Below are positions 54,482-64,000 of a stretch of 64,000 nucleotides of DNA, one piece after another. Location of the stretch: positions 7,006,001-7,070,000 of the forward strand of contig NZ_CP090063.1 in the NCBI RefSeq assembly GCF_021391495.1, in the 5' to 3' direction. The stretch comes from Amycolatopsis acidiphila. GTDB taxonomy: Bacteria > Actinomycetota > Actinomycetes > Mycobacteriales > Pseudonocardiaceae. Each line of letters opens with the position of its first letter. Position 1 is the first letter of the stretch. The notes under the pieces were generated by a model, which did not search any database, was not told the origin of the DNA, and saw nothing but the letters and a program-made list of their open reading frames with translations. The position numbers and the translations under genes are program-made.

Positions 54482-54922
54482 GTGGACCTTGGGGGAGCTT
54501 ATTACAACCCGAAAGACCAGGTCAGGACCCTTGAACGGCTCCGCGAGAAGCTCCCCAACCTCGACGCACCCGAGCCGACGGAGGCCCGGCCGGACCGGCC
54601 TCGGCGTGCCCGGCAATTCGACTCCGACCAAGTCGAGCGGCTGATCGCCGCCTACCAGGCCGGCGCGACGGTGTACCAACTCAGCGACCGGTTCGGTATC
54701 GAACGGCGCACGGTCAGCAACATCCTCCACCGGCACGGTGTGCCGATGCGCCGCCGCGGCCTCTCTCCAGGCCAAGTCGACGAAGCCATCCACCTCTACA
54801 ACCTCGGCTGGTCCCTGGCACGAGTCGGCGATCACCTCGGCGTCAACCACACCACCGTGCTGAACAAACTCCGTGAACGCGGCGTCCCCACCCGAGACTC
54901 CCACGGCCGACCGCGAACATGA
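54482..54922 (+). CDS. Tandem-HTH protein (copy 2)
   Basis: The 146-residue protein starts [20 protein letters not shown] and contains two HTH units: [20 protein letters not shown] with [20 protein letters not shown], and [20 protein letters not shown] with [20 protein letters not shown]. It is about 75% similar to the protein at 61564 and to the wreck at 30556. The HTH pair resembles the DNA-binding tail of actinobacterial serine recombinases, without a catalytic domain. Sequence identity between copies begins at the GTG, which supports this start over the ATG at 54290. It may be a regulator of integrated elements. Confidence 0.7.
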
Positions 54923-61553: not shown

Positions 61554-61563
61554 GGCTTCATCT

Positions 61564-62004
61564 GTGGACCTTGGGGGAACTTACTACAACACAAAACCTC
61601 AGGTAGAAGCCCTGGAAACCCTGCTCCGGAAGCTGCCCGGCCCCACCGAACCGGCAGCACCGCCCGTCGATCGACCCAAACCACGACGGGCACGGCAACT
61701 GGACGCCGACCAGGTCCAGGAACTCATCACCGGCTACCAAGCCGGAGCGACGGTGTACGAACTCGGCGACCGGTTCGGCATCGAACGGCGAACGGTCAGC
61801 AACATCCTCAAACGACACGACGTGCCGATACGCCGCCGCGGACTCGCCCCCGAGCAGGTCGACGACGCCATCCACCTCTACAACCTCGGCTGGTCCCTCG
61901 CTCGAGTCGGCGAACACCTGGGCGTCAACCACACCACCGTGCTGACCAAACTCCGCGAACGCGGCATCCCCACCCGCGACACACATGGTCGACCTCGGTC
62001 TTGA
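61564..62004 (+). CDS. Tandem-HTH protein (copy 3)
   Basis: The 146-residue protein starts [20 protein letters not shown], with first [23 protein letters not shown] and [20 protein letters not shown], and second [20 protein letters not shown] and [20 protein letters not shown]. It is the best-preserved relative of the copies at 30556 and 54482. The frame extends upstream through the hairpin to 61414, but sequence identity with copy 2 begins at GTGGACCTTGGGGGA, which supports the start at 61564. Confidence 0.72.
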
Positions 62005-62082: not shown

Positions 62083-62454
62083 ATGGCAAGGGCTCCGAAG
62101 TTCAGCGCCCGGATGTCCGGTCGATGGCGGATCGTGGCGATGAGTGGCTGGGACCGCGACGCGATCGACCTGGTCGAGCCGGGTTATGTCGAGTTCGCCC
62201 GGAACGGGACCGGCCAGTTCGGTTTCATCGCCGTCCACGGTTGGCTGGACTGCCGCCCGGTCGAGCGGGACGGCCGGCCCGGCGTGGAGTTCACCTGGGA
62301 AGGTTCCGACGAGGGCGATCAGGTCAGCGGACGCGGCTGGGCAGTCATGGCCGACGACGACACGATCGAGGGCCATCTGTTCTTCCACCTGGGCGACGAC
62401 TCGAGTTTCCGGGCGAAGCCGTTCACCGATGCCGACGAACCGGACGGACCATGA
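62083..62454 (+). CDS. Conserved hypothetical protein (123 aa)
   Basis: The product begins MARAPKFSARMSGRWRIVAM and continues DAIDLVEPGYVEFARNGTGQ, FGFIAVHGWLDCRPVERDGR and WEGSDEGDQVSGRGWAVMAD. It has the look of a small beta-rich protein found widely in bacteria without assigned function. A -10-like TACGCT (62069-62074) lies eight bases before ATG and there is no ribosome site, so it may be leaderless. Its stop overlaps the next ATG (ATGA). Confidence 0.7.
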   Translation: MARAPKFSARMSGRWRIVAMSGWDRDAIDLVEPGYVEFARNGTGQFGFIAVHGWLDCRPVERDGRPGVEFTWEGSDEGDQVSGRGWAVMADDDTIEGHLFFHLGDDSSFRAKPFTDADEPDGP

Positions 62455-63617
62455 GCACGTACCAGTACTACGAGTTCCTGGCGATCGACTGGCCACTGGA
62501 CGATCGCGAACAAGCTGCGGTCCGGTCGCTGTCCACCCGGGCGCGGATCTCTTCGACCAGCTTCGTGAACGAGTACCACTGGGGCGACTTCAAGGGTGAC
62601 CCGCGCCGTCTGATGGAGCGCTACTACGACGCGCACCTGTACGTCGCCAACTGGGGTACCCACCGGGTGATGTTCCGTCTGCCGTGCGATCTGCTCGATC
62701 CCGATGTCGTCGAGGACTACTGCATCGGTGACGAGGTGAGCGCCTGGGTCATGGACGAGTTCATCGTGCTCGACATCAGCAGCGAGGACCACGCCGGTGA
62801 GTTCGACTTCGACTACGACCCCGAGAACCTGCTGTCGACGATCGTCGGAGTTCGCGCCGAACTCGCCGCCGGTGATCTCCGGCCGCTCTATCTCGCCTGG
62901 CTGGCGGTCTATGGTGCCTGGGAGCGCGATGAAGACGTTTTCGATCGTGATGCTGACGACGATCTCGAACCACCCGTTCCGCCCGGGCTGGGCACGCTCA
63001 CTGCCGCGCAGCGGGCGCTGGCCGACTTCCTGCGCCTCGACGACGATCTGATCGCGATCGCGGCTCAGACTTCTCCGCCGCTGGGCAAGACGGCCGATAG
63101 CCCTGATGACCTCACCGTTTGGGCAGCTCGCCTGCCGGTCACCGAGAAGGACCGGCTCCTGGCGCGGGTAATGCAGGGTGAGGCGGCGCGGGTGCAGATG
63201 GAGTTGCTGCGTCGTTTCCGCGGCGACACCGCTCCGATCATCCCCGTCCCAGCCCGCCGGACCGTGGCCGACCTGCTCGACGACGCGGCGCGGCGACGAG
63301 CCGACCGTGAGCGTCGGCTGGCCTCAGAGCACGCCGAAGACGAGGTACGCCGGGAACAGGCGCGTCTGCAGGCTCGTGAACGACGACTCGACACACTGGC
63401 CGCTGAGGAAGACGCCGCGTGGTCGCGCGTCGAGGCGATGATCGCCACCAGGAAACCGGCCGAGTATGACGCCGCCGTCACGCTGCTCACCGATCTGCAG
63501 GCGCTGGCCGAACGCGAGGACCGCTACGACACGTTCACCACCCGCACCATCGCGTTGCGGCAAACGCATGCACGCAAACCCAGCCTCATCGAGCGCCTCA
63601 ACCAGGCACGCATCTGA
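62451..63617 (+). CDS. Conserved hypothetical protein (388 aa)
   Basis: The product opens STYQYYEFLAIDWPLDDREQ, then ARISSTSFVNEYHWGDFKGD and LMERYYDAHLYVANWGTHRV, strands typical of a large uncharacterised family that often sits next to SWIM zinc-finger genes. The C-terminal third is a charged coiled coil (about 270-345: DDAARRRADRERRLASEHAE, then VRREQARLQARERRLDTLAA). No SWIM gene follows; instead a TOTE-type primase gene starts 18 bases later, so the three genes may form one operon. ATG 62451 overlaps the previous stop by four bases. Confidence 0.72.
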   Translation: MSTYQYYEFLAIDWPLDDREQAAVRSLSTRARISSTSFVNEYHWGDFKGDPRRLMERYYDAHLYVANWGTHRVMFRLPCDLLDPDVVEDYCIGDEVSAWVMDEFIVLDISSEDHAGEFDFDYDPENLLSTIVGVRAELAAGDLRPLYLAWLAVYGAWERDEDVFDRDADDDLEPPVPPGLGTLTAAQRALADFLRLDDDLIAIAAQTSPPLGKTADSPDDLTVWAARLPVTEKDRLLARVMQGEAARVQMELLRRFRGDTAPIIPVPARRTVADLLDDAARRRADRERRLASEHAEDEVRREQARLQARERRLDTLAAEEDAAWSRVEAMIATRKPAEYDAAVTLLTDLQALAEREDRYDTFTTRTIALRQTHARKPSLIERLNQARI

Positions 63618-63635: not shown

Positions 63636-64000
63636 GTGGAAGACGATCTCCAGCCAGCGGAGCTTGCGGAGGAACTCACGGAGCTCCGTGAGTTGACAAC
63701 GCAGTTGCGTACGGAGAACGCACGGTTGTTGCGGCTGCTGGAGCTGACTCCGAAACAGGCGGCTCCGCCCGGCCCGGTGCAGACCGGCTTCTTCGAGGCG
63801 CACCCGGGCCCGGTCGACCGGCGATCGGCCCCGGAGGTGAAGGTCGATTTTTTCGCTGCCTTGTTCGCCGCCCGCATCGACATCTACGCCACGCGATGGG
63901 AGAACGCGCGTACTGGCAAAGCTGGTTGGCTGCCGGCGGTGCGCGGCGGGTGGCGCAAGGGCGTCCGGCATGAGGATCGCGACTACCTGCCGCTGAGCAA
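63636..64000 (+). CDS. TOTE conflict system primase-domain protein (3' partial)
   Basis: The frame from GTG 63636 is open to the window end (121 codons). It begins with a coiled coil, ELAEELTELRELTTQLRTEN followed by ARLLRLLEL. A linker follows, then the start of an archaeo-eukaryotic primase domain of the TOTE type: VKVDFFAALFAARIDIYATR, WENARTGKAGWLPAVRGGW, RKGVRHEDRDYLPLS. The order F-x-x-LF-x-x-R-x-D-x-YA-x-RW-x-N-x-x-TG-x-x-GW-x-P-x-x-x-GGW matches what I know of this family. In full-length systems the primase is followed by helicase and nuclease domains or genes, thought to act in conflict with foreign DNA. These lie beyond the window. Confidence 0.72.
   Translation, partial: MEDDLQPAELAEELTELRELTTQLRTENARLLRLLELTPKQAAPPGPVQTGFFEAHPGPVDRRSAPEVKVDFFAALFAARIDIYATRWENARTGKAGWLPAVRGGWRKGVRHEDRDYLPLS

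Follow-up and report, generated by a model that had tools for sequence, protein, structure and literature searches.

A Prim-Pol/XPB-like helicase gene and two associated genes as cargo of a small element in Amycolatopsis acidiphila: a candidate defence unit

Described systems and the encoded protein

Prim-Pol proteins fused to a helicase have already been described and, according to PMC8211822, the CAPP-helicase arrangement is the most prevalent architecture of non-CRISPR CAPP homologues and is typically found in mobile elements. A second point of comparison is the TOTE systems, in which TPR, OB and TBP are combined with an Effector (PMC12458937). Both were compared with a locus at the right edge of the window, by which we mean the whole 64,000-nucleotide stretch of Amycolatopsis acidiphila DNA analysed here, equal to bases 7006001-7070000 of a complete chromosome of 8.18 Mb. 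The locus holds a gene for a Prim-Pol domain joined to an XPB-like helicase (hereafter the primase/helicase) and, upstream of it, two genes for unnamed proteins, U123 and U388 (Table 1). The primase/helicase is the last gene of this three-gene unit, which is carried by a 5.26-kb element that has no recombinase of its own and lies in a tandem array of related elements.

The open frame of 121 codons that the original prediction had read up to the window edge was found to be real. When the adjoining bases were added (L003, identical to the window sequence where the two overlap), the full frame encoded 801 residues and reached its stop at position 66041, numbered on beyond the window (window-equivalent), so that it did not close early. 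The archaeo-eukaryotic primase domain announced by those first codons was confirmed by the Pfam family AEP-TOTE (PF22548) at residues 69-289, far above chance (246.5 bits against a cut-off of 27, E=3.3e-73). Because the match covers these residues, the stretch with IDIYATRWENARTGKAGW and PAVRGGWRKG can be taken as the start of the domain, and the coiled coil placed before it is consistent with a helix modelled at residues 7-34. The SF2 helicase expected downstream was found inside the same protein, C-terminal to the Prim-Pol domain (Pfam ResIII, residues 425-564; Helicase_C, 656-756). The DxD of a CAPP-like Prim-Pol domain was present, the catalytic motifs were computed to be intact and the active sites conserved, and the gene was under purifying selection (dN/dS 0.14-0.29 across six pairs).

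By its predicted fold the helicase half is an XPB-like SF2 enzyme, and its sequence matches were RadD/XPB-like. It differs from the XPB/Rad25 helicases (PDB 6p4f, 6p4o, 5tnu, 2fwr) in the fusion to a primase, and the 801-residue protein scored 71 bits with the NCBIfam XPB equivalog, far under the cut-off of 610. The gene product is thus predicted to belong to the non-CRISPR CAPP-helicase type, with a Prim-Pol and an XPB-like motor in one chain. It shares with CAPP_A of that type, as PMC8211822 describes it, a DxD Prim-Pol domain followed by a helicase, the best PADLOC model was CAS-associated PrimPol (4.8e-74) and CAPP structures matched the protein model. It differs in that Cas1 (PF01867) is absent from the genome, that the gene is recurrently linked to U123 and U388 and that it lies within defined element ends.

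The original prediction had also placed the gene in a TOTE conflict system with a nuclease module, and this part did not hold. No nuclease domain was detected by Pfam within the 801 residues or, apart from transposases and integrases, in the neighbours scanned. The AEP-TOTE primase domain is shared with TOTE systems, but no TPR, OB/cold-shock or TBP domain was found among the scanned neighbours, and the partner test does not support membership. TBP (PF00352) was absent from the whole genome; the same probe found nothing in 396 genomes of the phylum, so it may miss divergent bacterial TBPs.

The three-gene unit and its element

The stop codon of U388 lies 18 bases upstream of the primase/helicase start. 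U388 and U123 had no match in Pfam, NCBIfam, PADLOC or PHROGs scans; at least 4224 relatives of U388 and 827 of U123 were counted, and among the names listed nearly all were 'hypothetical protein'. U388 was present in 77 of 390 genomes of the same family and the primase in 46 (E<=1e-20), partly as fragments and near full length at 27 loci. Both occurred together in 21 genomes, where 9.1 were expected (hypergeometric P=1.7e-5, with relatedness ignored), and they were adjacent in 19 of these: in 17, U388 precedes the primase on one strand (nearest gap 16-86 bases), and in two the genes are divergent. This adjacency persisted down to about 65% primase identity, and even in Pelagicoccus (L107) a diverged U388 (E=3e-45) adjoins the primase in divergent orientation. 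Since the two are neighbours in some genomes and separate in most, U123-U388 looks like a pair in its own right that joined the primase gene. A small unnamed gene of a 'KLGK' type was seen upstream of U388 in three loci (L261, L263, L265), with a look-alike upstream of the primase in L111, and is possibly a further link between them.

The limits of the element were given by the comparison with loci from other genera, in which identity begins sharply at 61562-61564 and stops near 66830. Within this block, identity was 94.6% in L040, 92.3% in L042 and 94.8% in L166 (from 61642), and outside it there was little likeness, save for extra copies of the helix-turn-helix open reading frame (ORF) and, in L166, another copy of U388. 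The left border is common to L041 (87.2%), L049 and L168. The recA regions of the same genomes (G248, G216, G164; longest alignments) were 81.3-84.9% identical; in a genome of the same genus (G004) the values were 86.7% for recA and 72.4% for the primase. Therefore, the block as a whole was transferred recently between genera.

A direct repeat, GTGGACCT or GTGGAGCT, was found at both ends of the element. In L042, the repeat at the right end coincides with the 3' end of an abutting tRNA-Ala(cgc), and in L040 it precedes an apparent partial tRNA, which was judged by eye and for which ARAGORN makes no call; the element thus has at both ends the tRNA 3'-end repeat of an integrative element. In the window genome, the element is followed on its right by a further element, which starts with this core at 66823, and not by a tRNA. 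The right-end sequence was clear at 66823 and at 85426. With up to 3 mismatches allowed, four copies of the left-end motif were found in the chromosome, all in one orientation and within 31 kb (reversed control, 0); of 346 genomes of the family, 72 contain the motif. Integrating conjugative elements of actinobacteria usually insert at tRNA genes, and the identity of the core in L042 with a tRNA 3' end is a likeness to them. The present element differs in being 5 kb long without an integrase of its own, in its tandem array and in beginning with a helix-turn-helix ORF that supplies the end of a serine recombinase frame.

An extra segment of 1.74 kb, missing at window-equivalent 66176-66181, was observed in L040 (10546-12286), at the same place in L166 and L049, and similarly in L042. 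It carries small genes named by reading as XRE-type, IrrE-like and PIN-like, and 6 bases overlap at the breakpoint, suggestive of the gain or loss of a cassette.

Table 1. Features of the unit, its element and the neighbouring element, in window positions
Feature	Coordinates	Strand	Remarks
Neighbouring element of the same family (or remnant): left-end motif with helix-turn-helix ORF	54482..54922	+	
Element left end, GTGGACCTTGGGGGAACTTACTACAACAC	61564..61592	+	Begins with the 8-base core, which recurs at the right end (window-equivalent 66823-66830)
146-residue helix-turn-helix ORF at element left end	61564..62004	+	In L049, in-frame C-terminal tail of a serine recombinase
U123, 123-residue unnamed protein	62083..62454	+	Alternative start 62113; 4-base overlap with U388
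U388, 388-residue unnamed protein	62451..63617	+	N-terminal alpha/beta part, helical middle, long coiled coil
Prim-Pol/XPB-like helicase gene, first 121 codons	63636..64000	+	ORF 63636-63998, GTG start, runs off the window

Proposed function and alternatives

We consider it somewhat more probable than its opposite that the U123-U388-primase/helicase unit is a mobile defence against invading DNA, protecting the cell or the element. This proposal draws on the computed domain make-up, catalytic motifs, purifying selection, block transfer and element ends, and on the anti-phage cargo of some sibling elements. The XPB-like motor would move along duplex or forked invader DNA and open it, the Prim-Pol would use the exposed strand as template for primers or second strands, and such priming could stall or corrupt the replication of the invader, with the coiled-coil protein U388 and U123 as putative partner or sensor subunits.

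The surroundings of relatives are consistent with such a role. A genome scan gave 549 matched stretches and 524 relatives, from Actinobacteria, Elusimicrobia, Spirochaetia, Bdellovibrio kin, Syntrophaceae, Spartobacteria, Opitutales and others, and the best 80 loci were kept for locus analysis (54 of them shorter than 18 kb, many being cut by contig ends). Neighbours of the relatives include toxin-antitoxin, AbiE and restriction genes. In five loci (L150, L155, L156, L166, L043), Wadjet JetA/JetC or a type I methylase was found in the vicinity of U388 or of the U123-U388 pair, in a check of ten hand-picked proteins of which eight matched. Sibling cargo was sampled in eight hand-picked stretches with two left ends per contig, five of which span both ends (L283-L285 are cut and do not). 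Between two left ends, G255 and G004 hold complete HmaA, HmaB and HmaC matches (PADLOC, E<=3.5e-260), and G171 holds JetA, JetC and JetD of Wadjet III.

Several observations weigh against this reading. Recognised defence genes were present in only three of the eight sibling stretches, the other five having none recognised as judged from protein starts. U388 was not found in 70 of the 80 genome loci, many of them cut by contig ends, and it stands apart from the primase in 58 of the 77 genomes that have it. The genes upstream of the primase were co-directional in 60 of 78 cases and in 435 of 596 controls, so there was no excess, and numerous primase copies are fragmentary, some through decay and some through contig ends. 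As for the element, its left-end motif was seen in only 5 of the 80 loci, L043 and L057 hold all three genes but no left end that could be recognised, the right-end match at the upstream border (61540, for the left end at 61564) is weak, with 8 mismatches, and the tRNA-Ala(cgc) of the window genome is not beside the block but 39 kb rightwards of the last left end.

A role in tolerance or repair of host DNA damage, in which the Prim-Pol would reprime behind lesions exposed by the XPB-like motor as a dispensable accessory enzyme, is the least improbable alternative, although still an unlikely one. It would suit the XPB-like fold and the RadD/XPB-like sequence matches, and mycobacterial Prim-PolC works in base excision repair according to PMC5663958; the gene is, however, patchy within the family, has moved recently between genera on a mobile element and has relatives that adjoin toxin-antitoxin, AbiE and restriction genes. 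That the protein serves to replicate its own carrier element, like the primase-helicases of plasmids and phage satellites, appears improbable. The gene does lie on a small element, and many archaeo-eukaryotic primases of mobile elements are held to replicate their carriers (PMC5862659), but its helicase is an XPB-like SF2 enzyme, the left end was not seen in 75 of the 80 relatives' loci and no recurrent replication gene occurred among the neighbour clusters listed. The primase, like U388 and U123, was in none of the eight sibling stretches, five of which span two left ends, so it is not a required gene of the element family.

A role in phage replication is likewise unlikely, since the gene occurs in chromosomes and plasmids and is nearly missing from phages. 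Matches were found in 280 of 72,556 plasmid records, 91 of them covering at least 80% of the query, and in 1146 of 50,697 phage records, none over 80% of the query. Among the phage matches listed (25 rows), the alignment begins at residue 369 or later, within the helicase half, and among the viral contigs (best 80 of 97 relatives), L170 alone spans residues 69-800 with AEP-TOTE, the other 79 beginning at residue 321 or later. We give little credence to an effector of a true TOTE system with partners too diverged for detection: Pfam does place the domain in AEP-TOTE, against which stand the lack of TPR, OB or TBP neighbours and of a genomic TBP. Least credible of all is CRISPR spacer acquisition as in CAPP proper, to which the PADLOC and structural matches point, as the genome has no Cas1.

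Helicase-fused non-CRISPR Prim-Pols have been described as common, and neither an assigned role for them nor an experiment on the present protein was found in the literature searched. The repeated occurrence of the three genes together, on a family of elements with Hma and Wadjet among its cargo, puts the defence proposal into a concrete, testable form, and the element ends offer a handle for finding other cargo units.

The tandem array

Helix-turn-helix ORFs of 146, 146 and 152 residues begin at the left ends 54482, 61564 and 85426, respectively. In L049, a serine recombinase of 676 residues (Resolvase, Recombinase, zinc ribbon) continues in frame into such an ORF, and serine recombinase frames cross the core into the ORF of the next element at L049:4337-6367 and at window-equivalent 77054-78280; in the window's array, a recombinase piece beside an IS701 transposase runs in frame into such an ORF at 77801. 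More speculatively, and with considerable doubt, the three genes may form a new defence system, U123-U388-Prim-Pol/XPB, which tandem arrays of tRNA-3'-end elements carry as a single exchangeable cassette. The helix-turn-helix ORF at the start of each element would let an upstream serine recombinase read across the core and take its C-terminal DNA-binding part from the neighbour, and the array would be a store of exchangeable cargo, defence systems included, in actinobacteria. Neither the U123-U388 partnership nor the element array was found described in the literature searched, which is not proof that no description exists.

The next element of the array contains a tyrosine integrase of 461 residues (L003:7490-8875, window-equivalent 67489-68874), which may mobilise the array elements; no close relative of it was found in the loci searched. 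Between two element ends, at window-equivalent 79332-84974, lies an ORF of 1880 residues, polyketide-synthase-like as judged by its start only. In G004 and G411, about 1.07 kb within one open frame interrupts the RecA match near residue 193-198 (L273/L274 and L272/L275), and this insertion looks like an intein.
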